A DNA stretch of 25,510 bases from a virus. The notes under the pieces were generated by a model, which saw nothing but the letters and a program-made list of their open reading frames with translations, had not been told where the DNA came from and did not search any database. Shown here piece by piece: positions 602 through 18,974 of this stretch; the stretch's first letter is position 1; each line of letters opens with the position of its first letter. A program made the translations under genes and the position numbers. The stretch lies in IMG/VR virus record IMGVR_UViG_3300018049_000126, positions 1 through 25,510 of that record. One strand, written 5' to 3'.

Positions 602-2314
602 ATGCGAATACAGTTTAAACGTGTAAAATACAAAAATATCTTATCGACGGGGAACACCTTTACAACAATTGAAATGGACGAGAGTCCTACTACTTTAATT
701 AGTGGTACAAACGGTAGCGGAAAATCAACGCTCCTGGACGCAATTGTTTTTGGGTTGTACGGTAAGCCATTCAGGAAAATCAATAAGCCACAGTTGATTA
801 ATTCAATCAACCAAAAAGCCATGCTCGTTGAAATAGAGTTTTCGGTTGGTGGTAGTGATTATTGGATACGCCGTGGTATTAAACCCGCTGTTTTCGAGAT
901 CTATAAGAATGGTGAGCTGCTCAATCAAGACGCGGCTAAACGTGATTATCAGTCTTATCTTGAATCGAGTATCCTTGGGATTAACTATAAATCATTCAAC
1001 CAAATCGTTGTTCTTGGTAGTGCAACGTACGTTCCTTTCATGGAGTTACCACCACACAATCGACGAGAAATCATTGAGGACCTTCTGGATATTCAAGTCT
1101 TTAGTACAATGGGTTTATTAGCAAAGGATCGTTTAAACACCAACAAGGACGAGGTGAGCGAGAACGCCTATCAGATTGAAATCGTAGAGTCAAACATTGC
1201 ATTGATTGAGAAGAACAACGAAGAAATCCGTAAGATTCGAGTTGCATCGGTCGATGGCATTAGAGAAAAAATGAATGTACACATCAATGAGATCGAAAAA
1301 CATAACGATACGATTGATGCTATCAATGAAAAGATTCAATCTCTATACGAAACGATAAGTGATAAGAAAGACGTCAACGAAAAAAATATGGAAGCAAGTC
1401 GATTGCGACAAGAACTCGATATGAAAAAGCGTGAGTTCGAAAAGCAATTGAGCTTCTATCATGATAACGATAATTGTCCTACTTGCCAACAGGGGATTGA
1501 TCATGACTTCAAAGAAAATATTGTCAACGAAAAATCCAGTAAAAAAGCGGAGATCGAATTGGCACAAGACAAAATTGCCGATACCATCGAAGGTTACCAA
1601 AAAAGAATTAATGAGATCAACGAGGTTGAGGAAGAAATCCAAAGCGAGTCTTTTAAGATCTCTGAAATCAAAGCGGACATCCGTAGCGCTAAAAATTCTT
1701 TACTTACCCTTAAGGCCGAATTGGAGTCGGCGGAGAGAGAAGTTGAGGAAGTCGACACCACTCAACTTAACGACTTTACGAGTCGCCTTAAAGATTACCA
1801 GACTTCACGTAAGTCTTTACTTGATGAACAAACGACGCTTAACATAATCAGTACGATATTGAAAGATGGCGGGATCAAAGCCCGTATTATCAAGCAATAT
1901 ATTCCAGTTATGAATAAGCTCATCAATAAGTATCTCGCGGCGTTCGATCTCTTTGTTGATTTCCAACTCGACGAGAACTTTAATGAAGTAATCAAGTCTC
2001 GCTTCCGCGATACATTCTCGTATGCTTCATTCTCTGAAGGTGAAAAGCTTCGTATCACATTGAGTATTATGCTTGCATGGCGATCTGTTGCTAAACTACG
2101 TAACTCTGTGAGTACTAATCTGCTTATTCTTGATGAAACTCTTGATGGTGCACTTGATGGTGTGGGAATTGAGAACTTAATTGAAACGTTACACAGTCTC
2201 AATAACGACGATAACATATTTGTTATCAGCCATCGAGGTGATCAGTTTGCTGAGAAGTTTGCAGCACACGTCAAGTTTAAGAAAGTCAAAAACTTCAGTG
2301 AGATTGCTGCCTAA
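602..2314 (+). CDS. 46: Recombination endonuclease subunit gp46 (SbcC/Rad50-like ATPase)
   Basis: SMC-type ATPase of 570 aa that pairs with gp47 to process DNA ends for phage recombination and replication. Walker A is GTNGSGKST (residues 35-43). A long coiled coil follows, interrupted by a CPTC zinc hook (292-295). The ABC signature is FSEGEKLR (477-484) and Walker B is LLILDE (507-512), followed by the D-loop region. Length and domain order match T4 gp46 (about 560 aa). The ATG begins one base after the gp47 stop, with a GAGG ribosome site inside the gp47 coding end. The last base of its TAA is the first base of the next ATG. No anomaly seen. Confidence 0.96.
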   Translation: MRIQFKRVKYKNILSTGNTFTTIEMDESPTTLISGTNGSGKSTLLDAIVFGLYGKPFRKINKPQLINSINQKAMLVEIEFSVGGSDYWIRRGIKPAVFEIYKNGELLNQDAAKRDYQSYLESSILGINYKSFNQIVVLGSATYVPFMELPPHNRREIIEDLLDIQVFSTMGLLAKDRLNTNKDEVSENAYQIEIVESNIALIEKNNEEIRKIRVASVDGIREKMNVHINEIEKHNDTIDAINEKIQSLYETISDKKDVNEKNMEASRLRQELDMKKREFEKQLSFYHDNDNCPTCQQGIDHDFKENIVNEKSSKKAEIELAQDKIADTIEGYQKRINEINEVEEEIQSESFKISEIKADIRSAKNSLLTLKAELESAEREVEEVDTTQLNDFTSRLKDYQTSRKSLLDEQTTLNIISTILKDGGIKARIIKQYIPVMNKLINKYLAAFDLFVDFQLDENFNEVIKSRFRDTFSYASFSEGEKLRITLSIMLAWRSVAKLRNSVSTNLLILDETLDGALDGVGIENLIETLHSLNNDDNIFVISHRGDQFAEKFAAHVKFKKVKNFSEIAA

Positions 2315-3093
2315 TGAATGCGTTAAACAAGTCGGGCATGTGCTTTGAAGGGCTCGACAATCATTTCGAAGAGATCCATACTCAGTATTACGAGTTCTTT
2401 AATCGAAAGACTTATGACTGGTGGTACGAAGTTAAAGAAGGTGATATTTGTTTAGACATTGGATCGTGTATAGGAATGTTTACATGTCTGGCGCTTGATA
2501 AAGGAGCCAGCAAGGTCTACGCCGTTGAGCCTAATCCTACTTTACTTCGAACGACAATGAAAAATGCTTTCCCACATATCTGCAATCGAGAGCAATCACC
2601 AGTCATTCCAATTAACGCATTCATTGGAACCGACAGAGGTAATGCTTTTGGTGCATTCGATGAGAGTCAAGTTCCGTCATTATCTTTCATGGAGCTTATC
2701 GAGAAATATAACATCGACTATATTGACTATCTTAAGATTGACTGTGAGGGTGGTGAATACGACATTCTTACGAAAGAGAATCTTGAGTGGATCAAAGCAA
2801 ACGTCAAACACATGGTCGTAGAGGTACACATCGATACTGTAGAAAACTCAGAAGAAAAATTCAGGCAATTTAGAAAAGATTTTCTATATGATTTCGAAGA
2901 TTATAAAATACGTTTCTGCAAAGAAGACGCAGAGAAAAAGACTTATGCTGATGAGTGGGACTGGGCATCTATGTACCCGTCAATAGAAGATCAGAATTGG
3001 GGTAAGTCGTGGCTCATCTTTATATGCAATAAGTCACTCGAACATAGAAAACACGACTTTGGTCCTCACCTTCATGGATCAAGAAACGGTTGA
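2314..3093 (+). CDS. FkbM-family SAM-dependent methyltransferase
   Basis: 259 aa. Class I SAM-binding motif LDIGSCIG (residues 47-54), the acidic ribose-binding Glu72 in YAVEPNP, and an FkbM-type signature LKIDCEGGEYD (140-150). FkbM enzymes usually O-methylate sugars or other small hydroxylated substrates; the substrate here cannot be read from sequence. The start overlaps the gp46 stop by one base (TAATG), so it belongs to the gp47-gp46 transcript. Its TGA stop is embedded in the TTGACA -35 box of the downstream polymerase promoter. A methyltransferase between gp46 and gp43 is not part of the T4 core. A role in modifying glycosylated DNA or a surface glycan is possible but speculative. Confidence 0.82.
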   Translation: MNALNKSGMCFEGLDNHFEEIHTQYYEFFNRKTYDWWYEVKEGDICLDIGSCIGMFTCLALDKGASKVYAVEPNPTLLRTTMKNAFPHICNREQSPVIPINAFIGTDRGNAFGAFDESQVPSLSFMELIEKYNIDYIDYLKIDCEGGEYDILTKENLEWIKANVKHMVVEVHIDTVENSEEKFRQFRKDFLYDFEDYKIRFCKEDAEKKTYADEWDWASMYPSIEDQNWGKSWLIFICNKSLEHRKHDFGPHLHGSRNG

Positions 3094-3146: not shown

Positions 3147-5687
3147 ATGGCTTCTTTCTATACTTCAGTCGAAAGATTTGGTAACAACATCCTTTGGCGT
3201 GGTTACGACAATGGTAAGCGCTTCTCTTATCGCGTTCCATTCAAGCCCACGCTCTATGTACACTCTCCAAAGAAACCTGGCTCGTTTCGCTCGTTACTCG
3301 GTAACAAGACACTCACTCAAATGCAGTTCGGTGACATGCGAGAAGCAAAGAACTTCATTGAGCAATACAAAGATGTCGGTAATTTCGAGATCTTTGGTAG
3401 CACCAATTACGTAGCTCAATTCATCCAGGAACATTATCCTGATGATATTGAGTTCAACATCGACGACATCAACATCGCTTCCTTCGACATCGAGGTTGAC
3501 ATCAGCGATGGATACGCTGACATTGAAACCGCGGATAAGGAAGTCACTTCGATCGCGTTTAAGTCTTCGAAGTCTGAAAAGTATTATCTGCTCGGTCGTA
3601 AGGATTACGACAAAAATAAGACTATCACTGGTATCGATCCTGAGAACATTAAGTTCTATAAATTCGATACCGAGGTTCAACTTCTTCGAGCATTCGTCGA
3701 GTTATGGAAATCAGACTATCCTGATCTTGTAACGGGTTGGAACGTTGAGTACTTTGATATTCAATACATCGTTACTCGAATCATTCGACTCTGCGGTGAG
3801 GATTTGGCTAAGCAACTCTCTCCGTGGAAAAGCATTCGTCAAAACACTCGTGAGTTTTTTGGTAAAGTTCAATCTACGTATCAGCTCTCTGGTATCACTA
3901 TCGTTGACTACATGGATGCATTCAAAAAGTTTGGTTACAAGTATGGTCCTCAAGAATCGTATAAGCTCGATCACATTGCTCACGTAGTTCTCGGTGAAAA
4001 GAAACTGGACTACTCTGAATACGGAGGCTTGACTGAACTCTATGAGCAAAATCCACAACTATATCTTGACTATAATCTCAAAGATACTCAGCTCATTCAA
4101 CGTATGGAAGATGAGTCTGGCCTTTTGGCTCTTGTGCTTACTGTTGCCTATGGTGGTGGTGTTAATATCAATGATGCATTCGGAACTGTAGGCATCTGGG
4201 AAACAACAATCTATCGTCGTCTCATTAAAGACAACGTAGTGCCTAATATCAAAAGTGGTCCTGGTGCACGCGCAGGCGAGCTTGTGGGCGGGTACGTGAA
4301 AGATCCTCGACCCGGCATGTATCCTTGGGTTGTATCGTTTGATTTGAATTCTCTGTATCCTCATCTCATGATGCAATATAACATGTCACCTGAGACCTAT
4401 ATGCCCAATGAACGAGAGGCTGTTACTCAGGAAATGGTGTTGAACGACGACTTCAAAAATACGACTCAAGGCATGTCAGTCGCAGCCAATGGTGTCTGCT
4501 TCGATAATGAGAAACTCGGAATCATTCCCGAGATCATTAATGAGAACTACAACAATCGCTCAAAGATTAAAAAGCAAATGTTGGCAGCCGAGCAGCAATA
4601 TGAGGTTGAGACAGATCCACGCCAAAAAGAACAACTCAAAAAAGAAATCAATCAGCTTCATAATTCTCAGATGGCGATAAAGATTTCGATGAACTCTCTT
4701 TATGGCGCTACGGCAAACATCTACTTCCTCTACTATATTAATGAGATGGCCGAAGCAATCACTACATCTGGTCAGCTCAGTATTCGATATGCTCAAAAGT
4801 CTGTGAATGAGTACCTTAACAAAGTTCTCAAGACCGAAGGTAAAGACTATATCGTCTACATCGATACAGATTCGATTTACGTAAACTTTGGTCCTCTCGT
4901 TAAAGAAGTCTTTGGTACGACTGACATCGATCGAGCTAAGGGCGAAGAGTTCCTCGATAAGATTTGCTCGACCAAGATTGAGCAAGTGATCGAAGCTGGT
5001 TATGAAAAGCTTGCGAAAGACATGGGTGCTTATCGTAATGCGATGGTGATGAAACGGGAAAAGATTACCGATCGCTCGATCTTTATCGCTAAAAAGCGTT
5101 ACATCATGAATACACTCAACTCCGAAGGTGTACACTATGACAAACCAAAGATCAGTGTAACCGGTCTTGAGTCTGTACGATCTTCGACACCTGAGGTATG
5201 TCGTGAAAAAATGAAGCAAGTCTTCGAAGTTATTATGAATGAAGGTGAGTCAGAAACTCAACGCTTCATCGAAAACTTCCGTGAGGAGTTCAAAAGACTT
5301 CCTCCTGAAGAAGTGGGTCGCAACTCTGGTACAGACAGCATTGAGAAGTATATGAACAAAACTTCGCTGTACAGAAAGGGCTGCCCAATGCATGTTCGTG
5401 GTTGTATTCTCTTCAACGACATGCTTTCTAAAAAGAACCTGAACAAGCGGTACGAGTCTATCAAGTCAGGCGACAAAATCAAGTTTGTGTATCTCAAGTT
5501 ACCCAATCCTCTGCGGGAAAATATCATATCGTTTCCTGGTGTTCTTCCAAAAGAGATGGGACTCGAGTCATACATAGACTATAACAAGCAATTTGAAAAG
5601 GTGTTCCTCAGTCCGATTGAGCATATACTAGAAGCTTTGGGGTGGTCGGCTGAAAAAGTGAATACGATTGAAGATTTTTTTGCATAA
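3147..5687 (+). CDS. 43: Family B DNA polymerase gp43
   Basis: Replicative polymerase of 846 aa with 3'-5' proofreading. Exonuclease motifs: Exo I FDIEVD (113-118, Asp114/Glu116), Exo II WNVEYFDIQY (198-207) and Exo III YNLKDTQL (309-316). Polymerase motif A is DLNSLYPHL (399-407), motif B is KISMNSLYG (512-520) and motif C is YIDTDSIY (571-578). All catalytic acids are present. The C-terminus ends in an acidic, aromatic DFFA tail, consistent with the short clamp-binding peptide of T4-type polymerases. It is slightly shorter than T4 gp43 (898 aa). It has its own promoter immediately upstream. In T4 it follows RegA; here it lies far upstream of regA, next to gp46. Confidence 0.97.
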   Translation: MASFYTSVERFGNNILWRGYDNGKRFSYRVPFKPTLYVHSPKKPGSFRSLLGNKTLTQMQFGDMREAKNFIEQYKDVGNFEIFGSTNYVAQFIQEHYPDDIEFNIDDINIASFDIEVDISDGYADIETADKEVTSIAFKSSKSEKYYLLGRKDYDKNKTITGIDPENIKFYKFDTEVQLLRAFVELWKSDYPDLVTGWNVEYFDIQYIVTRIIRLCGEDLAKQLSPWKSIRQNTREFFGKVQSTYQLSGITIVDYMDAFKKFGYKYGPQESYKLDHIAHVVLGEKKLDYSEYGGLTELYEQNPQLYLDYNLKDTQLIQRMEDESGLLALVLTVAYGGGVNINDAFGTVGIWETTIYRRLIKDNVVPNIKSGPGARAGELVGGYVKDPRPGMYPWVVSFDLNSLYPHLMMQYNMSPETYMPNEREAVTQEMVLNDDFKNTTQGMSVAANGVCFDNEKLGIIPEIINENYNNRSKIKKQMLAAEQQYEVETDPRQKEQLKKEINQLHNSQMAIKISMNSLYGATANIYFLYYINEMAEAITTSGQLSIRYAQKSVNEYLNKVLKTEGKDYIVYIDTDSIYVNFGPLVKEVFGTTDIDRAKGEEFLDKICSTKIEQVIEAGYEKLAKDMGAYRNAMVMKREKITDRSIFIAKKRYIMNTLNSEGVHYDKPKISVTGLESVRSSTPEVCREKMKQVFEVIMNEGESETQRFIENFREEFKRLPPEEVGRNSGTDSIEKYMNKTSLYRKGCPMHVRGCILFNDMLSKKNLNKRYESIKSGDKIKFVYLKLPNPLRENIISFPGVLPKEMGLESYIDYNKQFEKVFLSPIEHILEALGWSAEKVNTIEDFFA

Positions 5688-5698
5688 GGAGATAAACT

Positions 5699-6004
5699 AT
5701 GAAGTATCTAATCGCAGTGTGTATGGTAATGTTTGCTTGTTCAGCGAACGCAGATCGATTCTATGACATCCGAGATGAGTGGGTAGCATGTGCGGCATGT
5801 CACGGACAACGTGGAGAAGGTGGCATTGGCCCAACTCTCTATAATCTCTCTGCCGATGAGATCATTGACAAGTTGATGTTGTATCGAAACAACGAAGTGA
5901 TTGGTCCTCAATCAGCAATGATGTGGCCTCAAGCTGCACAACTTGACGATGGTGAAATTGGAACAATTGGTGTATTCGTACAAGAAGGATTTCCGAATGA
6001 GTAA
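5699..6004 (+). CDS. Exported small class I c-type cytochrome
   Basis: 101 aa. Residues 1-18 form an Sec-type signal (basic Lys, hydrophobic core, SANA before the predicted cut). The mature part has a covalent haem site CAACH (Cys31, Cys34, His35), then GIGPTLY, and a distal Met (Met74 or Met75, in MMWPQAAQL) in the position of the sixth haem ligand. The C-terminal helix DDGEIGTIGVFVQEG fits class I cytochromes of the c553 type. It is about 83 aa when mature, a normal size for that group. AAGGAG lies upstream of the ATG, only 11 bases after the polymerase stop. The last 8 bases overlap the next gene. Haem attachment would need host periplasmic cytochrome c maturation. Function is inferred: electron carriage to or from a host oxidase. 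Confidence 0.85.
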   Translation: MKYLIAVCMVMFACSANADRFYDIRDEWVACAACHGQRGEGGIGPTLYNLSADEIIDKLMLYRNNEVIGPQSAMMWPQAAQLDDGEIGTIGVFVQEGFPNE

Positions 6005-6986: not shown

Positions 6987-8339
6987 ATGAAGTACGATGT
7001 AGAAGTATGGACCGCGCAGAAACTTGTTCAAATGCTTATCACTGGTAGGCTCAATCCCGATCCTATTGGTCAACGACCAGCAGTTACAGCAAGCAACAAA
7101 AAATCAATCAAAATCGTTCGAGGCATGTTAAACGGATACGGATGTGGTATGCTTACCGTTCGAGATATTCGTAACGATCCCGAAGCTCAAAAAATCTATA
7201 AGTGTGATTATCTCGTAGTCGATGGTGGTCATCGCTGTCGAGCAATAAAAGCTTACTTTGAAGGTAAGTTCCACATCGATGGAAAGTTCTTTAACGATTA
7301 CGAAGAAAACATTTTTGAGCAAATTGAAATTCCTGTTGATTTACGAGTATGTACATCAAAGGAAGCGTCGGTTTTGTTTAAGGCGATTAACACGACTACA
7401 CCGACTAATTTCATGGAAATGATTATGTCGGATGAAGAGTCAGAAGCTTGTAAATACTTTCGTACATTGACTACTTACGTAAAAGAGTATAAGAACGAAC
7501 CACATCCTTTGTTTGCTCGAAACTTTGGAACTGATGGTAACGTTTATCCTAAGAACTTTGACAATGCACTCATGAATCCTCGTCGTCGATGGGATGAGTA
7601 TGTGGCTATGGCTACTATTCGGTCTATGGGCAGGGGCTTAGTTGATTCGGGTCAATCTGAAATCGAAGTTCTTGCTGAAGACAATGAAGTCATTACAAAG
7701 GTTGCACAATCTCAAGTAAAAGACTTCCTTGATCTCGCTCTTGAATTTAAAGAGCATCGTAAAAAGACCTTTAACGATACAACGTTCTCAGCTTTCTTCA
7801 TTTATTACTTTGGCCTTGTGCAAAAGTACAAGAAGTTTACGATCCTCAACGAAGATAAGGTAGAGTTTTTCAATAACTTCCGCCAGGTCTACACTCGATT
7901 GACTGGTAACCAAGACCGTATCCTCGAGGATACAACGACCGAGTACGAAGGTCGCCAACATTACGTAAAAGAGTTTGTCCGCAAAAACGTTAAGAATTTT
8001 GCTAACGGTGCTCTTCAGCAAAAAGTCTTTGAGCTTATGGAAGAGTTTCGTGATGGACCGGATGGTGTCACTCCGCTTGATACTAAGCGATCACTGAATA
8101 GTAATGAGCGAGAAGAAGCTCTTGCTGCTCAAGGATTTAAGTGTGCAATCGATGGATTACCACTCGAGCTTGACGAAGCAGTGTTTGGACATGATACCCC
8201 GTGGTGTAAAGGCGGTGAGTCACATGCTCTTCAGGGTGCAATGATTCGAGAAGAGCACAATCGTGACATGGGAACAACTACACTCGATGAATATCGAATG
8301 GTACTTGAAATGCGAGCTCAACTGGCAAAAGCCAGTTGA
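6987..8339 (+). CDS. DUF262/ParB-like protein with C-terminal HNH nuclease domain
   Basis: 450 aa. The N-terminal domain has LVVDGGHRCRAIKAYFEG (residues 76-93), matching the VDG-Q/H-R core of DUF262 and ParB-like folds, which bind or hydrolyse NTPs in the GmrS subunit of type IV enzymes. A long helical middle follows. The C-terminus is HNH-like: FKCAIDG (384-390), GHDTPWCKGG (401-410), then EEHNRDMG (422-429). The first Cys of the usual zinc pair is present, but its partner is not obvious, so the fold may be zinc-independent. The DUF262 plus HNH order is that of GmrSD-type modification-dependent nucleases. It has its own early promoter and its TGA lies in the next one. Role inferred: attack on host DNA or competing elements, or DNA-maintenance signalling. 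A homing nuclease is less likely given the DUF262 domain. Confidence 0.68.
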   Translation: MKYDVEVWTAQKLVQMLITGRLNPDPIGQRPAVTASNKKSIKIVRGMLNGYGCGMLTVRDIRNDPEAQKIYKCDYLVVDGGHRCRAIKAYFEGKFHIDGKFFNDYEENIFEQIEIPVDLRVCTSKEASVLFKAINTTTPTNFMEMIMSDEESEACKYFRTLTTYVKEYKNEPHPLFARNFGTDGNVYPKNFDNALMNPRRRWDEYVAMATIRSMGRGLVDSGQSEIEVLAEDNEVITKVAQSQVKDFLDLALEFKEHRKKTFNDTTFSAFFIYYFGLVQKYKKFTILNEDKVEFFNNFRQVYTRLTGNQDRILEDTTTEYEGRQHYVKEFVRKNVKNFANGALQQKVFELMEEFRDGPDGVTPLDTKRSLNSNEREEALAAQGFKCAIDGLPLELDEAVFGHDTPWCKGGESHALQGAMIREEHNRDMGTTTLDEYRMVLEMRAQLAKAS

Positions 8340-8390: not shown

Positions 8391-8741
8391 ATGGCTAAAA
8401 ACAACGACACTCCCGAAGCGGTCAACGTTCTACAAGAATGTATCGACCTTCAGTTGAAAAAATCTCGGGATTATCAGAATCCTAATTCGACTGTAAAGCA
8501 GGCACAGTACTATCCTAATGGTATTGTGACTATCCACGATATCATGCATGCTAAAATGCTACGTATGAAATCTGTAATGGAAGCTATGCAAAGTGATGAT
8601 TATGATCCCAACTTCGAATCACTTGAGGATTCGGCTAAGGATCTCATCAACTATGCTAGCTTTTTTGTCTCGTTCTGTCGAGGTAAAATCCCTGGTCAAG
8701 ACTCGCGTAACGATGCATTTAACAGGAAGAAAAACGGTTAA
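8391..8741 (+). CDS. DUF1599-like nucleotide-modification-associated protein
   Basis: 116 aa. The pattern KKSRDYQNP near residue 25, HAKMLRMKSVME (about 53-64) and SLEDSAKDLINYASFF (about 77-92) resembles DUF1599 / all-alpha NTP pyrophosphatase-like proteins often found with phage nucleotide-modification genes. The conserved charged residues fit a metal-nucleotide site, but no single diagnostic motif proves catalysis. It is first in the transcript from the 8336 promoter, and its stop overlaps the next start by one base. The assignment is by pattern recall and context. Plausible role: removal of an unwanted nucleoside triphosphate, such as unmodified dCTP. Confidence 0.58.
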   Translation: MAKNNDTPEAVNVLQECIDLQLKKSRDYQNPNSTVKQAQYYPNGIVTIHDIMHAKMLRMKSVMEAMQSDDYDPNFESLEDSAKDLINYASFFVSFCRGKIPGQDSRNDAFNRKKNG

Positions 8742-9466
8742 TGATAGATTACGATAATCTGACAGTAGAAGGCTTTTGGGATAATCAACCTTATCCACAC
8801 GCGATCGTGGATAATTTTTGGAATCCTGATGTAGCACAAAATATACTGGCTGAAGTCAAAGATGTAGAGTACAATGCTGCGTACACTAATCCCTTTGAGT
8901 TGAAGAATGCCTGTAATATCTGGGATAGATTCTCACCCACGGTTTATCAGGCATTCACTTTCTTGAGTAGTAGAAAGTTTACAGATTATCTCGGTAAGAT
9001 ATTAGATATACCAGATCTCATTCCAGACGTTGGATTACATGGTGGTGGGATTCATTATCATCCACCCGGTGGTAAACTGAATCCCCATGTAGATTATAGT
9101 CATCATCCAAAATTAGGTTATCGTAGAAAGCTAAACTTTCTCGTATATCTCAATCCGGGTTGGCAGACAGGTCATGGTGGTGAGTTGGGTATGTGGACTC
9201 CAGAAGGAGCTCAAACTTTTAAAGAGCCCGTAAAAACGATTGAACCGCTGTTTAATCGTGCTGTCGTATTTGAGAGTACACAAACGAGCTATCATGGACT
9301 TGCTCGCCCGACTCAACAGCCAAGAAGAAGTATGGCATTCTATTATTTGGTAGACGACCAAACAGAAACGACAAGTCCTAAAGCAGCTTTCGTTCCCACC
9401 AAGGAACAAAAAGACGATCCCGAAGTTTATAGACTTGCAGAATTAAGAAAAACCCAGAGGTTATAA
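8741..9466 (+). CDS. 2-oxoglutarate/Fe(II)-dependent oxygenase, prolyl-hydroxylase type
   Basis: 241 aa with a complete facial triad on a jelly-roll framework: HVD (His116, Asp118) and distal His185 in TSYHGLA, plus an Arg pair (195-196) in RRSMAFYY that would bind 2-oxoglutarate. Sequence between the motifs (NPHVDYSHHPKLGYRRKLN and GHGGELGMW) is typical of prolyl-4-hydroxylase-like phage oxygenases. It sits between the DUF1599-like and dCMP hydroxymethylase genes in one coupled run. This suggests oxidation of a modified base or nucleotide, but protein hydroxylation is the better-known activity of this subfamily. It lacks the distinctive context of TET/JBP enzymes that I could identify. Substrate unknown. 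Confidence 0.82.
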   Translation: MIDYDNLTVEGFWDNQPYPHAIVDNFWNPDVAQNILAEVKDVEYNAAYTNPFELKNACNIWDRFSPTVYQAFTFLSSRKFTDYLGKILDIPDLIPDVGLHGGGIHYHPPGGKLNPHVDYSHHPKLGYRRKLNFLVYLNPGWQTGHGGELGMWTPEGAQTFKEPVKTIEPLFNRAVVFESTQTSYHGLARPTQQPRRSMAFYYLVDDQTETTSPKAAFVPTKEQKDDPEVYRLAELRKTQRL

Positions 9467-9467
9467 A

Positions 9468-10148
9468 ATGAACAATGTAGATTATATTCGACAACAAATC
9501 ATTGACAAATATCTCGACGAAGATTTTGTCATTGATCGTACTGGTGCTAAAACGATTGAAATCATTGGCGCGACATTTCTCGCTGACGAAGATTATATCA
9601 TTCGTAAACCCAGCCTTGAGTATATTATGCGTGAGCTTCAATGGTATGAATCTCAATCGCTTAATGTAAATGACATCCCTGGTGAAACGCCACAAATTTG
9701 GAAAGACATTTCTTCGACTGAAGGTAAGATTAATTCAAATTATGGTTGGTGTATTCACTCTGACGAAAATGGTAATCAATTTAGTCACGTTCTTCGCGAG
9801 CTGCGTAACAATCCAAATAGTCGACGAGCTACTATGATCTATAACAGACCGAGTATGCATCTTGACTTTAATCGTGATGGTATGAACGACTTTATGTGTA
9901 CTTACGCAAATACGTTCTATATCCGCGATGACAAGCTTCATTCGCATTATCTCATGCGTAGTAATGATGCAGTCTTTGGTTACAACAATGATGTTGCATG
10001 GGCACGTAGTGTTCTCAACAAATTGGCTGGCGAGCTCAATGTTACTCCCGGCGATATCATCTGGACCGCTTCCAACTTCCACGTTTATGAGCGCCACTTT
10101 AAGTTCATTGAAAAGCTAATGGAAACGGAAAGGCCGATCCCAGTCTGA
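9468..10148 (+). CDS. 42: dCMP hydroxymethylase (thymidylate-synthase family), gp42-like
   Basis: 226 aa. Transfers a hydroxymethyl group from methylene-tetrahydrofolate to C5 of dCMP. Nucleophile Cys144 (FMCTYANTF), phosphate-binding Arg164-Ser165, Asp167 and Glu56 (RELQWY) align with thymidylate synthase. The base-selecting position is Asp175 (GYNNDVAW), where thymidylate synthases have Asn. T4 gp42 has Cys148 and Asp179, the same 31-residue spacing, and that Asp is known to give dCMP specificity. Glu56 is likewise four less than the catalytic Glu60 of T4. The ATG follows AGAGGT, two bases after the oxygenase stop. The alpha-glucosyltransferase follows directly, so 5-hydroxymethylcytosine is the likely genomic base. 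Somewhat shorter than T4 gp42 (246 aa). Confidence 0.9.
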   Translation: MNNVDYIRQQIIDKYLDEDFVIDRTGAKTIEIIGATFLADEDYIIRKPSLEYIMRELQWYESQSLNVNDIPGETPQIWKDISSTEGKINSNYGWCIHSDENGNQFSHVLRELRNNPNSRRATMIYNRPSMHLDFNRDGMNDFMCTYANTFYIRDDKLHSHYLMRSNDAVFGYNNDVAWARSVLNKLAGELNVTPGDIIWTASNFHVYERHFKFIEKLMETERPIPV

Positions 10149-10172
10149 CATATATAGAATATAGTTTATGAT
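10145..10172 (+). promoter_or_regulatory. Weak candidate promoter before the glucosyltransferase
   Basis: CTGACA at 10145-10150, 16-bp spacer, TATGAT at 10167-10172, in the 36-base gap before the ATG at 10185. The match is imperfect and the predicted RNA start would fall very close to the GAGG ribosome site, so it may be chance. Confidence 0.25.
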
Positions 10173-10184
10173 GAGTGAGGTTAT

Positions 10185-11420
10185 ATGAATAATGTATCAG
10201 TGATTATGGCTCGAGGTGTAGAAGGTTGTGGCGTAACCAAGTACACCGTGGAGCAAGTCAAGTGGCTTAAGAAACATGGCTATAATGTAAAAGTCTACGC
10301 TTCAAAAGATAAAAGCTTTTCTCGTAAGTATGCTCATGAACTCGGCGAGTTTGAGCACTTTAAGTTTTCTGATACGGAGAAGCTTCAACAAATGATTCAG
10401 GAGTGTAACTCTTCTGATGTTATTATGGTCAACTCACTTCCCGCAAAAGGGAATGGACGAGGTAAAGGTGCAGGTGATGCAGCCCTTGATAACTGGAAGT
10501 TGGCTCTTAAAGAATTCAAAAAGCCCACAGTGCTTATTCAACATGACCATACAGTTTATTCAATTAATCGTAACGGTGCACTCGAAGAAGCGATCGATGC
10601 GGCTGATCTCATCTTTGCTCATGCTCGTACAAACGATTTTTCACAAAAGGTAAGAGAACATTGTGGCCAAGAAGGCCTAGGCTCATTCTTCGGTGAAGAA
10701 CCCGAAGATAAGTTGATTTTACCTTTCCAGCCTGGTATTGACTTCGACGGAACTCGAGCTCAATACTGGAAACCTATCGAAGAGACTGATCCACTACATC
10801 ACAAGTGGATTGGTCGTACGACTTCGTGGAAAGGTTATAAGCTCATGTTCGATTGGCACAATAACTACCTCATGAAAGAAGGCGCACTTACAACGTTCGA
10901 GGGAATCGAGAAATCACCTGCTTGGTTGGGCTTTAAGGAACTCAGCGAATTTTACGACAGCCTTGATTTCAATCCTGATGAACTCGATATTTCTGATCGT
11001 TATGGTAAGCTAGCATCTGTATTTGGTTGCTTTATTAATGATGAGCTTATGCATCGTATGTCTCGCGTAGGATTTGGTTATCAGTTGAGTATCCTTAAGC
11101 CAAAATACATTGAGCGATCAATTGAATATACTCACCAAGAAGTTGTTGCGGCTGGTGCTATTCCAGTCTTTCGAAAAGAGTATGGTGACGTATGCATACA
11201 TAGAGTAACCGGCGATCCTTTATCGGAATCGAAAAACAATTATACACTATGGCTGGGTGAAGGTAATCAAGACCAAGTCATAGAACAGGTCAAAAAGCTT
11301 ACAGCCGATGCTGCTTTGCGAGATGAGTGGAGAGAAGGTGCGTTTGAATTCTATAAGCAACACCAAGACGCCGAGTACACTTTCACAGACCTGATGAATA
11401 GCATCAAGGAGAATCTATGA
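10185..11420 (+). CDS. agt: DNA alpha-glucosyltransferase (T4 alpha-gt-like)
   Basis: 411 aa; T4 enzyme is 400 aa. Transfers glucose from UDP-glucose to hydroxymethylcytosine in DNA. Recognised by co-linear blocks shared with T4 AGT: MARGVEGCGVTK (residues 8-19), IQHDHTVYSINRNGALEE in the first half, WIGRTTSWKGYKLMFDWH in the middle, GFGYQLSILKPKYIERS and EYTHQEVVAAGAIPVF, and YKQHQDAEYTF near the end. The fold is GT-B, and the EYTHxE region belongs to the donor-binding half. It follows the dCMP hydroxymethylase and overlaps the next gene by ATGA with a strong AAGGAG site. The pairing with a D175-type hydroxymethylase makes glucosylated hmC the most economical reading. Confidence 0.92.
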   Translation: MNNVSVIMARGVEGCGVTKYTVEQVKWLKKHGYNVKVYASKDKSFSRKYAHELGEFEHFKFSDTEKLQQMIQECNSSDVIMVNSLPAKGNGRGKGAGDAALDNWKLALKEFKKPTVLIQHDHTVYSINRNGALEEAIDAADLIFAHARTNDFSQKVREHCGQEGLGSFFGEEPEDKLILPFQPGIDFDGTRAQYWKPIEETDPLHHKWIGRTTSWKGYKLMFDWHNNYLMKEGALTTFEGIEKSPAWLGFKELSEFYDSLDFNPDELDISDRYGKLASVFGCFINDELMHRMSRVGFGYQLSILKPKYIERSIEYTHQEVVAAGAIPVFRKEYGDVCIHRVTGDPLSESKNNYTLWLGEGNQDQVIEQVKKLTADAALRDEWREGAFEFYKQHQDAEYTFTDLMNSIKENL

Positions 11421-12607
11421 TTAAACACGCTTCAATTGTACCACTCATTGGTGGTGAAACAATTGGTTCAGAACTCGCCTTTGGTGAGAAGCCAACTTAT
11501 ATGATGTCATACGAAGCTTTTGAAGCTAACGATGCTCATGCACGACACTATTATAGTGGTGTACCTTATTACGTCCTCGACAAAGGAGAAAATCCTACTG
11601 AGTCTGTGGATGTGGTCTCGTCTGTATGTCCTTGTGCCGGTTTATCTCAGCTATCACATGGATTTGGTGACCATAACCCAAACAATGAGTGGATGAGTAT
11701 TACTGCCGAACATGTTCTCGGTACGATCAAGCCAAAAGTTTTCTGGGGTGAGAATGCACCAGGCTTTGCCGGTAAGATCGGTGAGAATGTTCGAAATCAT
11801 TTAAGAAAGATTGGCCAGGAAAATGGATATACAATGAGTGTATATCGTACAAAGTCCTTGCTACACGGGGGCCCGCAAATAAGAGAGCGATCATTCTATT
11901 TCTTTTGGCGTGACGATAAAACCCCGTTATTGAATTTTTACAACAGGGAGCATGTCAAGATTGAAGACGTTATCAAAGGAGTCAGATCAAACTTCCAGAC
12001 CGAGCCTATTAATCCGAAGACGCCGTCTAAAGATGATCTTTATTACAAGTTTATTCTTGAACATATTCATGGTGGTATTAGCCATCGGGATTTTGTTGAT
12101 ATTGTAGAGCCTCAGAAAGTTCGTAACTCTGATGTATTTTCATATATAGAACGTATGGGTTATGATTACTTGCAGGTCGGAGAGTGGATGGAAAAGAACG
12201 AGTACGAGAAAGAAGTCGAAAAGTGTCGTTATCGTTATGAGAAGTTGAAGAATGGTGGCAACATCATGAGACGAGGTACGATTATCCCTAAGGATCATAT
12301 TGGTGCTTTTGTTGGTCACTATCCTACAATGCTGACTCATCCCATCGAAGATCGATACATTAACTATCGAGAAGCAATGACTATTATGGGTCTACCCGAA
12401 GACTTTGAACTTCTCAATCAAAAGAAGTCTGCTAATCATATTTGTCAGAATGTTCCCGTTCAAACGGCAAGGGATATGGCGTCAGAAGTGAAAAAATATT
12501 TAGAAGGTGACCTTCAGCTGGTTGACACAGACTACGTAATACAGTATAATCACAGCCAGAAATCAGAATACGTTGAAAAACAAGATACGCTTGAGGCTTT
12601 CTTATGA
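11417..12607 (+). CDS. C5-cytosine DNA methyltransferase family protein
   Basis: 396 aa with the C5-methyltransferase motifs in order. Motif I region PLIGGETIGSELAFG (residues 9-23); motif IV CPCAGLSQ (71-78) with catalytic Cys73; motif VI GENAPG (111-116, Glu112); motif VIII PQIRERSF (153-160); and near the C-terminus INYREAMTIMGLPEDFEL (IX-like) with QNVPVQTARDMA (X-like). The usual PCQ is PCA and ENV is ENA, so it is a divergent member. The stretch between motifs VIII and IX, about 160 aa, would hold the target-recognition region. It is coupled by ATGA to alpha-gt upstream and dexA downstream. If the genome carries hmC, the substrate may be host DNA, residual cytosine, or the modified base. 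A perfect promoter for dexA lies in its 3' end. Confidence 0.8.
   Translation: MIKHASIVPLIGGETIGSELAFGEKPTYMMSYEAFEANDAHARHYYSGVPYYVLDKGENPTESVDVVSSVCPCAGLSQLSHGFGDHNPNNEWMSITAEHVLGTIKPKVFWGENAPGFAGKIGENVRNHLRKIGQENGYTMSVYRTKSLLHGGPQIRERSFYFFWRDDKTPLLNFYNREHVKIEDVIKGVRSNFQTEPINPKTPSKDDLYYKFILEHIHGGISHRDFVDIVEPQKVRNSDVFSYIERMGYDYLQVGEWMEKNEYEKEVEKCRYRYEKLKNGGNIMRRGTIIPKDHIGAFVGHYPTMLTHPIEDRYINYREAMTIMGLPEDFELLNQKKSANHICQNVPVQTARDMASEVKKYLEGDLQLVDTDYVIQYNHSQKSEYVEKQDTLEAFL
12522..12550 (+). promoter_or_regulatory. Perfect-consensus sigma70 promoter inside the C5-methyltransferase gene
   Basis: TTGACA at 12522-12527, 17-bp spacer, TATAAT at 12545-12550. Both hexamers are exact consensus. The predicted start (about 12557) lies 47 bases before the dexA ATG. 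It lacks the GGCAC that usually follows the other early promoters here. Coding constraint could explain part of the match, but two exact hexamers at optimal spacing are unlikely by chance. Confidence 0.72.
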
Positions 12608-13209
12608 AACATTTGATTTTAGATTTTGAGACAATGGGTACAGATCCGACAGACTGTGCGGTTGTCGATGTTTCTGCTATGGTATTTGATTGGGATCGAT
12701 TTGAATCTAATCCTTATACGTGTAAGGATATAAACAGCGTTAAGAGATTCAAGCTGTCGGTGAGTGATCAGGTTCAAAATTATGGATTTAAAGTCGAGCA
12801 AGGTGTTCTCGACTTCTGGCAATCTCAACCTAAAGAAGTCAAAAGAAATATTGCACCAAAGAAAACAGACTTGACTGTAAAAGAGTTTGTACAGCAATTT
12901 CATGATTTCTTGATTGACGCTGGTGGTATCGGTCATTGGTGGACTCGGTCAAATACTTTTGATCCTGTGATATTGACTCGTCTCTTTGCTGCTGAAGGTA
13001 GAAAGACTCACATGGAAGAGTACCTCAAGTATTACCTTGTACGAGATACGAGAACGTGGATTGATGCTAAACTTAACTTCCCTAAAAAGAATGGATTTGT
13101 GATCGATGAGTGGGAAGAAAATTTTAAAGCCCATGATAGTGCTTGGGATATTTTGATTGACGTACTCAGATTACAATTACTACATAGAACAGAGTTTGAT
13201 TTAGACTAA
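12604..13209 (+). CDS. dexA: Exonuclease DexA-like (DEDDh 3'-5' exonuclease)
   Basis: 201 aa; T4 DexA is 227 aa. DEDDh exonuclease residues: DFE (Asp7, Glu9), Asp120 in SNTFDPVIL, and His177 with Asp182 in KAHDSAWDIL. The block LDFETMG, the RNIAP motif (81-85) and the GFVIDEWEENFKAHDS tail match T4 DexA in order. T4 DexA degrades single-stranded DNA and supports host-DNA turnover. Start overlaps the methyltransferase stop (ATGA). It can also be transcribed from the consensus promoter at 12522. Confidence 0.88.
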   Translation: MKHLILDFETMGTDPTDCAVVDVSAMVFDWDRFESNPYTCKDINSVKRFKLSVSDQVQNYGFKVEQGVLDFWQSQPKEVKRNIAPKKTDLTVKEFVQQFHDFLIDAGGIGHWWTRSNTFDPVILTRLFAAEGRKTHMEEYLKYYLVRDTRTWIDAKLNFPKKNGFVIDEWEENFKAHDSAWDILIDVLRLQLLHRTEFDLD

Positions 13210-13218
13210 GGATTTATT

Positions 13219-14085
13219 ATGAATTTGAAAATTAGCACTGAGCAGTTGAGAGACTACTCAATTTTTATTGGAACTCCAATGTACGGCGGTCAGTGTTCAG
13301 GTTTGTTTACAAAATCCTGTACTGATCTTGCAATGGTTTGTGGAGCTCACGGGATTCCACTTAAGTTTTATTATCTGTTTAATGAGAGTCTTGTGCAACG
13401 AGCTCGTAACTATGTGGTTGATGAGTTTCTTCGTTCAGAGTGCACTCACCTCATGTTTATCGACAGTGACATTGGCTTCCAAGCTCGTGATGTACTCGCT
13501 CTTCTCGGTATTCAGACTTCTGATCCCGAAAAATTTAATATCATTACTGGTCCTTATCCCAAGAAAACAATCGCATGGGAAAAGGTAGCAGCTGCTGCTA
13601 AGCAAGGATTTGCAGACGAGAATCCATTTAACCTAGGTCAGTTTACTTCTGACTATGTATTCAATCCAGTAAAAGGACAGACCTCAATGAAAATGTCTGA
13701 TCCTATTGAGGTAGCCGAAGCAGGCACTGGATTCATGCTCATTCCTCGTGAAACTCTCGAGAAATACGCAGAAGCTTATCCTGAGCTTCTCTATACTCCG
13801 GATCATGTACGTACTGAAAACTTCGACGGCACTCGGAAAATCACTGCGTTTTTTGATTGTGTAATTGATCCTGATACAAACCGCTACCTATCCGAAGATT
13901 ACTTTTTCTGTAAGCAATCTCGAAAAATTGATTTGAGTATTTGGATGTGTCCGTGGATGCAACTCAATCATGTCGGCTCATATATCTTTGCCGGCAATAT
14001 GGCCGCCCTTGGCCAGCTCGGTGTGTCAGCTACTGCAGACAAAACATCGAACCAAAAAACTTATCGTAAAAAGAAAAAGAAATAG
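13219..14085 (+). CDS. Glycosyltransferase-like protein (GT-A/GT2 type)
   Basis: 288 aa. N-terminal half has a Rossmann-like start (YSIFIGTPMYGG), LFNESLVQRARNY and the metal/nucleotide-sugar motif MFIDSDIGF with DSD at 82-84, as in family 2 glycosyltransferases. A second block, EAGTGFMLIPRETLEKY, and SEDYFFCKQSR (an ED/acceptor-side motif) follow. The C-terminus is a poly-lysine tail. I recall related proteins as widespread in marine T4-like phages. It ends the modification cluster and its stop abuts the sliding clamp promoter. It could act on hmC, on the glucose added by alpha-gt, or on a surface glycan. The acceptor cannot be told. Confidence 0.72.
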   Translation: MNLKISTEQLRDYSIFIGTPMYGGQCSGLFTKSCTDLAMVCGAHGIPLKFYYLFNESLVQRARNYVVDEFLRSECTHLMFIDSDIGFQARDVLALLGIQTSDPEKFNIITGPYPKKTIAWEKVAAAAKQGFADENPFNLGQFTSDYVFNPVKGQTSMKMSDPIEVAEAGTGFMLIPRETLEKYAEAYPELLYTPDHVRTENFDGTRKITAFFDCVIDPDTNRYLSEDYFFCKQSRKIDLSIWMCPWMQLNHVGSYIFAGNMAALGQLGVSATADKTSNQKTYRKKKKK

Positions 14086-14114: not shown

Positions 14115-14146
14115 GGCACTTAAATTTGAAAGGAGAACTCTTTGTT

Positions 14147-14809
14147 ATGAAATTTTCTGAACGTACTCTTACCATTTTGAAAAGCTTTGCTGGTATCAAC
14201 AAGTCTATTCAAATGAAAGAGGGCACAGTACTCAAAACTATTACGCCCGAGAAAACACTGATCGCTATTGCGAACATTCCCGACGAGATCCCGTCAGAAG
14301 CATGTATCTATGACATGTCACGGTTTTTGTCAATTTTAAGCCTCTATGATGATCCAGACGTGGAATTTCATGATAAATACTTTATTATCTCAGAAGGCAG
14401 ACGACGTACTAAGTATGTCTACGCCGACATTTCAATGATCCATACTCCGCCTGAGAAAGAGATTACGATCCCTTCCGAAGACGTTGTTGTTGATGTGAAG
14501 TGGGATGATTTACAGTCCGTACTGAAAGCGGCAGGTGTGCTTCAGTTTAGTGAGGTAGCTTTTGTAGGCGAAAGCGGCAATTGTTATCTCAAGGCAATCG
14601 ACAGCTCAAACGATAATGCTGACGACTATGATGTCGAAATCGGAGAGACTGACGATACGTTTAAGATTATCATTAAAACCGATAACCTTAAACTGCTACC
14701 TCAAGACTATCGAGTTACGCTTTGCAGCAAAGGTATCTCGGAGTTTCGAGGCAAGGATGTCACGTATTTCGTGGCAATTGATTCTAAGTCGACTTATAAC
14801 AAAGGATGA
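14147..14809 (+). CDS. 45: DNA polymerase sliding clamp gp45
   Basis: 220 aa; T4 gp45 is 228 aa. Trimeric processivity clamp for gp43 and, in T4, coactivator of late transcription. Recognised by the N-terminal MKFSERTLTILKSFAGIN, the clamp-fold stretch IYDMSRFLSILSLYDD, and KTDNLKLLPQDYRVTLCSKG near the C-terminus, all co-linear with T4 gp45. Start at 14147 chosen because AAGGAG (14130-14135) sits 11 bases upstream; an in-frame ATG at 14126 would overlap that site. Ends in an ATGA overlap with the next gene. The late promoters in this window fit a gp45-dependent late system. Confidence 0.93.
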   Translation: MKFSERTLTILKSFAGINKSIQMKEGTVLKTITPEKTLIAIANIPDEIPSEACIYDMSRFLSILSLYDDPDVEFHDKYFIISEGRRRTKYVYADISMIHTPPEKEITIPSEDVVVDVKWDDLQSVLKAAGVLQFSEVAFVGESGNCYLKAIDSSNDNADDYDVEIGETDDTFKIIIKTDNLKLLPQDYRVTLCSKGISEFRGKDVTYFVAIDSKSTYNKG

Positions 14810-17930: not shown

Positions 17931-18389
17931 ATGACTGGTTTAAACATTAACCACCTCACCCCGTTTACTGTAGGTTTTGATCGAATGCTCGATCGATTCG
18001 AAGTACTTACAGATCAAATGAATCGAACCGGAGGATCCGGTTTCCCTCCCTACAACATCCGTAGAGACGCTGACGAGTTCTATATCGATATAGCGCTTGC
18101 TGGTCTTGACCAAGACGATGTTGAAATCGTAGTAGAAAATGGAACACTAACAATTCGTTCTACATGGGACGAACAAGGTGATTACTTCAACGCTGGAGGG
18201 GAAATTCTTCACCGCGGAATCTCATTCCGTAAATTCACTCGCAAATTCGATATTGCGGATGACATTGAAGTGAAAGGTGCCGAATTCGTTAACGGTCTTC
18301 TTACAGTTCATCTCGAAAGAGTAGTCCCCGAAGAGAAGAAGCCTAAGAAAATCGAAATCGGTAATACGAAAAAGCTGCTGAAAGGCTAG
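17931..18389 (+). CDS. Small heat-shock protein (Hsp20/alpha-crystallin, IbpA-like)
   Basis: 152 aa. N-terminal arm with TPFTVGFDRMLDRF as in bacterial IbpA, then an alpha-crystallin domain of about residues 40-125 (YNIRRDADEFYIDIALAGLD, VENGTLTIRS, and ISFRKFTRKFDIAD, NGLLTVHL). A C-terminal KKIEIGN supplies the I-x-I motif that binds neighbouring dimers. AAAGGAG ribosome site. It is expressed from the exact late promoter at 17856, so its products would build up during virion assembly, consistent with a holding chaperone for capsid or tail proteins. Small heat-shock genes are known in marine T4-like phages. Confidence 0.93.
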   Translation: MTGLNINHLTPFTVGFDRMLDRFEVLTDQMNRTGGSGFPPYNIRRDADEFYIDIALAGLDQDDVEIVVENGTLTIRSTWDEQGDYFNAGGEILHRGISFRKFTRKFDIADDIEVKGAEFVNGLLTVHLERVVPEEKKPKKIEIGNTKKLLKG

Positions 18390-18416
18390 CAAAACTTTTT
18401 ATAATGGAGATACATT

Positions 18417-18974
18417 ATGAATCCTAGAACAGGAAGACGAGTGCCTGACGTCACTTTTCAAACGCGCGTGCGAGACGACTCAGTCGGCGGAACCAATCCT
18501 TACCGATGGGAAGCTATTGGGTCGTCTGACCTCTTTGCTGGAAAGCGAGTGGTCGTATTCTCTTTGCCCGGTGCATTTACACCAACATGCTCAACATATC
18601 AAGTGCCAGGTTTTGAAGAAAACTATAACTTGATTCGTGAGCTTGGAGTCGATGAAGTTTATTGTGCTTCTGTTAACGACTCGTTTGTTATGAATAAGTG
18701 GGCAAAGGATCAGGGTGTTGAAAATGTAAAAATGATCCCAGATGGTACGGGTTGTTTTACACGACAAATGGGTATGCTCGTAGACAAATCAAACCTTGGC
18801 TTTGGTATGAGATCTTGGCGTTATGCTATGGTCGTAACTGATGGCGTTGTCGAAGCATTCTTCGAAGAGCCAGGTCTGAGGGATAATGCTTCTGACGATC
18901 CTTATGGAGAAACTGCTCCAGAAGCGATTGTTGAGTATTTGAAATCAGCGACAGGTTTGAGAGAAGCTAGTTAA
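18417..18974 (+). CDS. Peroxiredoxin (Prx5/AhpE-type, one-Cys-like)
   Basis: 185 aa. Peroxidatic motif PGAFTPTCS (51-59) with Thr55 and Cys58, and an Arg in the FGMRSWRYAM stretch that would complete the peroxide site. The Prx5 block YQVPGFEENY follows. Reduces hydrogen peroxide and organic peroxides; a resolving Cys is not obvious, though Cys70-Cys120 region contains others. It shares the late transcript of hsp20 (27-base gap, ATGGAG ribosome site) and ends at the convergent terminator. Phage-encoded peroxiredoxins are uncommon and fit protection during lysis-stage oxidative stress. Confidence 0.9.
   Translation: MNPRTGRRVPDVTFQTRVRDDSVGGTNPYRWEAIGSSDLFAGKRVVVFSLPGAFTPTCSTYQVPGFEENYNLIRELGVDEVYCASVNDSFVMNKWAKDQGVENVKMIPDGTGCFTRQMGMLVDKSNLGFGMRSWRYAMVVTDGVVEAFFEEPGLRDNASDDPYGETAPEAIVEYLKSATGLREAS

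Follow-up and report, generated by a model that had tools for sequence, protein, structure and literature searches.

A probable cytosine hypermodification island of a T4-like phage, with an exchangeable sugar slot and a methyltransferase-fold protein bearing a polymerase-like tail

The DNA analyzed here, called the window, is a fragment of viral DNA of 25,510 bases from the IMG/VR record IMGVR_UViG_3300018049_000126. It carries homologues of the T4-type genes for gp46, gp43, gp45 and gp44, and a run of seven genes which ends at the gene of the sliding clamp (Table 1). We consider it likely that this run of a T4-like phage serves as a cytosine hypermodification island, in which a core pathway to glucosylated hydroxymethylcytosine (hmC) is combined with a slot where sugar modules are swapped and with a protein of the C5-cytosine methyltransferase (MTase) fold, which would ride on the sliding clamp and perform an extra step beyond those of T4. 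A nucleotide search matched no close phage records, and the DNA polymerase of the window is at most 45.7% identical to its best GenBank phage match. Relatives were taken from viral contigs using three anchors: the MTase, the DNA alpha-glucosyltransferase (AGT) and the deoxycytidine monophosphate (dCMP) hydroxymethylase.

The predicted core chemistry is that of T4. In alignments with T4 gp42 and E. coli ThyA, the hydroxymethylase has Glu56, Cys144 and Asp175, the last being the dCMP-type residue at the position of Asn177 in ThyA, and the three residues are retained in all 161 aligned relatives in which the three sites could be read. The AGT can be aligned with T4 AGT (1y6f) over its full length and keeps the active-site stretches QHDH, IGRTT.WKG and YTH.E. 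The sequence-only reading of this DNA had predicted glucosylated hmC from these two genes, and this is well supported: both enzymes are secured by homology and by their active-site residues, so that glucosyl-hmC is to be expected. The hydroxymethylase would convert dCMP to hm-dCMP, to be incorporated as hmC, and the AGT would then attach alpha-glucose to hmC in the DNA.

Comparison of the relatives gives a recurring gene order: DUF1599, hydroxymethylase, (dCMP deaminase), a variable slot, MTase, (DexA), a protein with a predicted GT-A fold, clamp and gp44. Sugar modules swap in the slot between the hydroxymethylase side and the constant MTase-fold protein, and 37 different gene strings were found there in the 81 distinct loci of the slot survey. 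The transferases in the slot are of the AGT family, of the GT4, GT1 and GT8 types, or of a family of about 370 amino acids (aa) which has no Pfam match. Other occupants are UDP-galactopyranose mutase, an NAD-dependent epimerase, UDP-glucose dehydrogenase with a TET-associated glycosyltransferase (TAGT), myo-inositol-1-phosphate synthase with a helical domain of the 5-hydroxymethyldeoxyuridine (hmdU) kinase type, cytidylyltransferases, kinases, a SIS-domain protein and ribulose-phosphate epimerase. With so many different occupants, the AGT is one exchangeable module among many beside the constant MTase-fold protein.

The partnership of the MTase with the hydroxymethylase is close. Among 160 hydroxymethylase loci, some of them first fetched with MTase or AGT as bait, the MTase gene is found in 134 of the 137 which have contig room for it, loci with alternative sugar modules included; 23 end too early and three are without it. 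The hydroxymethylase-anchored set agrees with the full set on the presence of the MTase. An alignment-based search gave 48 further MTase-anchored loci, where the hydroxymethylase is present in 31, a contig edge intervenes in 17, and none with room lacks it. Relatives of the MTase are encoded on at least 575 IMG/VR stretches. We rejected a bacterial context for it: the matches of a genome scan are mainly contigs with island or T4-type replication genes, that is, phage contigs binned in metagenome-assembled genomes, so the scan is uninformative on hosts. No report of an MTase partner of the hydroxymethylase was found in the literature searched, whose coverage left out most subscription papers.

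In its inheritance, too, the MTase gene follows the sugar module more closely than it follows the flanking genes. When changes of slot type are counted on gene trees, the MTase tree needs 13 (bootstrap 13-15), that of the GT-A protein 17, the clamp 18 and the hydroxymethylase 19, and shuffled labels give about 36. With equal numbers of columns the counts are 7 for the MTase, 8 for DexA, 9 for the GT-A protein, 10 for the clamp and 11 for the hydroxymethylase. In another set the deaminase needs 17 against 12 for the MTase; the deaminase, which lies across the slot from the MTase, thus shows no effect, which favours a swap unit consisting of sugar module and MTase.

Distant homologues of the MTase occur in S-TIM5-like cyanophages (34% identity), in Pseudoalteromonas phage XG4 (32%) and in Bacillus phage G (26%), each of which has a thymidylate-synthase homologue carrying the dCMP-type Asp. 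The ThyA proteins of Cr30 and phiM12, which have no MTase, carry the ordinary Asn. In phage G an annotated alpha-glucosyltransferase lies about 3 kb from the MTase homologue gp301. A second thymidylate-synthase homologue of this phage with the dCMP-type Asp (locus L222, 233481-234188) lies about 13 kb from gp301. The “ThyA” of cyanophage S-TIM61 (UYE97116.1; L117:4766-5602) is probably dCMP-type, and misannotated, since it has Asp at the Asn177 position.

A hint to where the MTase acts comes from its C-terminal tail. The motif is present in 93 of 111 distinct MTase C-termini against 30 of 1056 background open reading frames (ORFs), and in 27 of the 29 distinct C-termini of gp43, which served as reference. 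The C-terminus of T4-type gp43 binds gp45, and because the MTase has the same tail as the phage DNA polymerase, tethering to the sliding clamp is predicted. Several families of the slot, unrelated transferases among them, carry the motif as well (GT4 6/7, GT1 4/5, HMUDK-type 10/10, TAGT 3/3), as do the cl6 family preceding the MTase and another glycosyltransferase family of the slot, with the C-terminus AATLEDFFG. It is rare in the hydroxymethylase (1/96), in the deaminase (3/105) and in the DUF1599 protein, and most sugar-synthesis enzymes have none, with UDP-galactopyranose mutase as the exception (5/13). Fisher tests on the tails are extreme, but they ignore relatedness and are descriptive only. 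The MTase homologues of phage G and S-TIM61 are tail-less, and neither genome gave a match to the PF00136 DNA polymerase family; that of XG4 is tail-less too, although XG4 has a PF00136 DNA polymerase. T4 AGT is reported to work with gp45 (PMC6024577).

The AlphaFold2 model of the MTase (pLDDT 92) matches the fold of M.HhaI (top PDB match, E 1e-14), DNMT1 and CmoX. Residue conservation was scored on 148 non-redundant sequences; Cys73 is invariant in all of them, and so are Glu112, Asn113, Gln154, Arg156 and Arg158, which means that the ENV Glu and the QxRxR arginines are present. Asn345 of motif X is kept in 99% of the family, as in ordinary C5-MTases. The site expected to bind S-adenosylmethionine (AdoMet) has another appearance. 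Between a predicted strand (residues 4-7) and a helix (13-22) of the model stands PLIGG, of which P9, L10, G12 and G13 are found in all 147 sequences covering them and I11 in 99%. Position 33, the site of the ribose-binding Glu, has Glu in 34% of the sequences, and at position 34, where M.HhaI and CmoX carry an aromatic residue, nearly all sequences have Ala, Pro or Gly and none has an aromatic one. Mapped by the order of secondary structure, the family thus has neither the canonical motif I FxGxGG nor the Glu/aromatic pair of motif II. Judged from sequences and model, we read this cofactor site as apparently conserved but non-canonical, and not as dead.

The polymerase-like tail suggests that the MTase-fold protein travels with the sliding clamp in the wake of the fork and works on freshly synthesized phage DNA. 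There it might use C5-MTase covalent chemistry (Cys73, Glu112, Arg156, Arg158) with a non-canonical cofactor pocket, either on hmC or on cytosines which escape hydroxymethylation, and this would be a step which T4 lacks. Chemistry on hmC by the C5-MTase fold is known in vitro: ordinary enzymes can act on hmC with loss of formaldehyde (PMC11347137), and M.HhaI with formaldehyde makes hmC while M.SssI couples cysteamine to hmC (PMC7176277). That the step takes place at hmC or glycosyl-hmC is quite possible, if short of an even chance, and that it is plain methylation of leftover cytosine is a somewhat more tentative suggestion. We commit only to a predicted post-replicative, clamp-associated role of the MTase on phage DNA. 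A further proposal, which we put forward as possible but still some way from probable, is that the MTase represents a new class of DNA-modifying enzyme, tethered to the clamp and independent of canonical AdoMet binding, which would use C5-MTase covalent chemistry on hmC or glycosylated hmC to make an undescribed base, in a step common to many sugar decorations in T4-like phages.

Several observations weigh against this picture. T4 makes glucosyl-hmC without the MTase, as do most of its enteric relatives, so the protein is not required for glucosylation as such, and in GenBank 626 records have an AGT match and just 8 an MTase match. Three loci (L187, L189 and L192) have a hydroxymethylase and contig room and no MTase. 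The family of about 370 aa and most AGTs, that of the window included, are without the tail. The gradient declining from DexA over the GT-A protein to the clamp indicates that physical linkage accounts for part of the co-inheritance. Finally, the AdoMet motifs had to be mapped by secondary-structure order because hhalign against ordinary C5-MTases aligned from residue 61 on only.

The MTase could instead be an ordinary AdoMet-dependent C5 methyltransferase, working on cytosines which escape hydroxymethylation as a back-up guard against nucleases of host or phage. The fold and all catalytic residues are as in enzymes of the M.HhaI type, the conserved Asn345 fits, and a clamp tail would suit a post-replicative methylase. 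Against this speak PLIGG in place of FxGxGG, the low frequency of the ribose-binding Glu and the lack of an aromatic residue after it; moreover, the MTase is found with dCMP-type synthases in every lineage examined, and the relatives of T4 do without it. We hold this explanation to be possible but doubtful.

Other enzymes of the run have also been thought to contribute. The sequence-only reading proposed that three extra enzymes add a further layer of modification; the proposal is supported for the MTase-like protein by the counts given above, is unlikely for the 2-oxoglutarate (2OG) oxygenase and is weakened for the GT-A protein. The model of the latter (pLDDT 88) has GT-A enzymes as fold matches in the PDB (E ~1e-5, TM score 0.4-0.5), no Pfam family matches, and D82 and D84 of a putative DxD-like motif are invariant. 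It is unlikely, though, that it adds a second sugar to glucosyl-hmC. Such a role would agree with the predicted fold, the two aspartates, the shared operon and the second glycosyltransferase which T6-type phages are thought to use (PMC13390438), but the gene also lies beside the gp45 clamp region in Cr30, phiM12 and DLP6, all without MTase and with an Asn-type ThyA or no PF00303 match, and none of 81 distinct C-termini has the clamp-type tail. It is a clamp neighbour of long standing, and its occurrence there in these phages weakens the case for an hmC-specific enzyme, and the GT-A protein is probably outside the core pathway.

It has also to be considered whether the MTase fold serves as a base-flipping reader or scaffold, which presents hmC to the preceding glycosyltransferase and has no chemistry of its own. 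The MTase start overlaps the preceding gene by 4 nt in 58 of 81 loci, whatever that gene is, and this, like the co-inheritance with the slot, would agree with a scaffold; the strict conservation of Cys73, Glu112, Arg156 and Arg158 in all sequences implies selected catalysis and makes the scaffold rather improbable.

A second, post-replicative route to hmC following the logic of phage TET systems, in which the MTase makes 5-methylcytosine (5mC), the 2OG enzyme oxidizes it to hmC and glycosyltransferases act on the product, is suggested by the three enzyme types in one run and by the TET-associated glycosyltransferase family in the slots of L026 and L036. The 2OG enzyme matches 2OG-FeII_Oxy_3/4, OGFOD1, prolyl-4-hydroxylase (P4H) and YhhC, and no match to the TET/JBP family was obtained. 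It is found in four near-identical contigs only, the same position in relatives being empty of a 2OG gene, whereas the MTase is nearly always present. On family and distribution the TET-like route through this enzyme is rejected, and we give the scheme very little credence. The layer of oxidation proposed earlier is unlikely too, because the enzyme is OGFOD1/P4H-like rather than TET-like and is missing from relatives; it is probably a recent insertion outside the core pathway. In the marine virus AG-345-L05 its relative is surrounded by epimerase-like genes, and the 9 kb on each side contain no hydroxymethylase. A carboxymethyltransferase of the CmoX type using carboxy-AdoMet is the most improbable of the explanations: the MTase family profile has CmoX (8yf3) as its top PDB match, and the folds match as well, but CmoX needs Arg350 at the site of Asn304 in M.HhaI (PMC12783734), where the family has Asn345, on which ground it is rejected, and no homologue of either CmoA or CmoY was noticed among the island genes, where neither was searched for by name.

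Table 1. Coordinates of the island genes and of the motifs discussed, numbered in the window
Feature	Position	Strand	Basis
C-terminal tail of gp43 DNA polymerase	5658..5684	+	VNTIEDFFA, motif reference
DUF1599-like protein (nucleotide-modification-associated domain 1), 116 aa, first island gene, conserved	8391..8741	+	PF07659 E 0.041 (below cut-off); phrog_18404 E 6e-13
2OG-Fe(II) oxygenase, OGFOD1/prolyl-4-hydroxylase-like	8741..9466	+	PF13640 E 4e-19; PDB 4nhx E 3e-7
dCMP hydroxymethylase, T4 gp42 type	9468..10148	+	Best PDB match T4 gp42 1b49, E 4.5e-72
DNA alpha-glucosyltransferase, T4 AGT family, in variable sugar slot	10185..11420	+	PF11440 E 1.2e-72; T4 AGT 1y6f E 1.5e-87
C5-cytosine-methyltransferase-fold protein	11417..12607	+	PF00145 E 1e-18, matched from residue 60 only; begins 4 nt within AGT gene
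PLIGG of MTase, residues 9-13	11441..11455	+	In place of AdoMet motif I FxGxGG
Catalytic Cys73 of MTase	11633..11635	+	Motif IV CPCAGLS
C-terminal tail of MTase, clamp-binding-like	12581..12604	+	QDTLEAFL
DexA-like 3'-5' exonuclease	12604..13209	+	PF16473 E 1.3e-16; phrog_255 E 2e-34
GT-A-fold putative glycosyltransferase, sliding-clamp neighbour	13219..14085	+	phrog_1574 E 2e-57; no Pfam match
Sliding clamp, gp45 homologue, presumed docking partner of tails	14126..14809	+	Neighbour-gene tblastn matches extend into annotated Sinorhizobium phage clamp genes; conserved clamp-gp44 order

All seven ORFs which the sequence-only reading had placed at 8391-14085 exist and lie on the plus strand, and its “largely coupled run” agrees with intergenic gaps of -1, 1, 36, -4, -4 and 9 nt. 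Its labels were borne out by family matches for the 2OG oxygenase, hydroxymethylase, AGT, MTase-like protein and DexA; DUF1599 is below the threshold in Pfam, and the GT-A label comes from the predicted fold alone. The DUF1599-like gene adjoins the hydroxymethylase gene in most relatives, and a PDB profile search for a nucleoside triphosphate pyrophosphatase gave insignificant matches only.

Directly upstream of the island (6987-8339) lies a gene for a ParB/DGQHR-like protein with an HNH-like stretch at its C-terminus and a weak PADLOC match to NsnA (E 3.5e-5); in relatives this gene is mostly found beside AGT or GT4 modules. The window also encodes a small protein resembling cytochrome c, with a CAACH motif and a probable signal peptide (5699-6004; PF00034 E 2.5e-4, barely above the cut-off), Hsp20 and a redoxin/peroxiredoxin gene downstream of the clamp-loader region (17931-18974) and, between the gp46 and gp43 genes, an FkbM-type methyltransferase (2314-3093; PF05050 E 6.6e-13) which is missing in most relatives.

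Some of the slot modules in relatives deserve mention. In L061:5940-7704, L064:7715-10001 and loci like them, the module beside a dCMP-type hydroxymethylase holds the cl6 family, myo-inositol-1-phosphate synthase and a helical domain of the 5-hmdU-kinase type, and such modules are candidates for an inositol- or phosphate-bearing cytosine. The module at L166:3407-7919 combines a HAD phosphatase and a SIS-domain protein with ribulose-phosphate 3-epimerase and a nucleotidyltransferase-kinase fusion, and has the look of a pathway which builds an activated pentose de novo. An ORF of 653 aa in the slot region of L026 (4293-6251) reads like a radical-SAM/B12-type protein. At L189:11402-14509 and L193:9698-12757 the hydroxymethylase is accompanied by cl39, the cl41 family resembling pyridoxal phosphate enzymes, and cl6, and no MTase was found; these islands would represent a different elaboration of hmC.

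The islands describe a widely found locus of T4-like phages in which a constant enzyme is retained while cassettes for the sugar chemistry on DNA are swapped. They give a short list of candidate new DNA bases, carrying galactofuranose, inositol, pentose or other groups, and one enzyme as a concrete target, and the near-constant MTase partner suggests a further DNA-modifying step absent from phage T4. The tail suggests a simple sequence rule helping to separate the DNA-acting enzymes at the fork from the makers of sugar donors, which would be useful for annotating phage modification genes. Some phage “thymidylate synthases”, in the S-TIM5 group and the second one of phage G, are indicated as dCMP-type.

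The pathway of T4 to hmC and alpha-glucosyl-hmC is the nearest known system, with gp42 and AGT homologues having matching active-site residues and with T4-type replication genes around them. The window differs in having one compact operon ending at the sliding clamp, an MTase-fold partner which T4 does not have, and an AGT which is interchangeable. Phage TET/5mC hypermodification systems combine a C5-MTase with a glycosyltransferase. These two types of enzyme are common to both, but the window has no TET/JBP oxygenase and its hmC would be made at the nucleotide level. Other T4-like phages carry other sugars: RB69 has arabinosyl-hmC instead of glucose (PMC6024577) and Shewanella phage Thanatos has deoxypentose-cytosine (PMC12838424). 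L166 and L118 have a nucleotidyltransferase-kinase fusion of about 560 aa which is similar to TH1_060 of Thanatos in the described size and domains. The available parts of these two sources report no MTase-fold partner for RB69 or Thanatos, whereas in islands of the window type the frame is fixed and the sugar module can be exchanged as a cassette. The CmoX system of Synechococcus phage S-B43 (PMC12783734) is alike in that a phage enzyme of the C5-MTase fold uses a non-standard cofactor in a hypermodification pathway, which for the window family is a prediction. The substrate of CmoX is plain cytosine, and the enzyme retains the aromatic residue and the Glu which bind AdoMet and has Arg350 (PMC12783734); the family of the window has Asn345 and PLIGG and is partnered by a dCMP hydroxymethylase.

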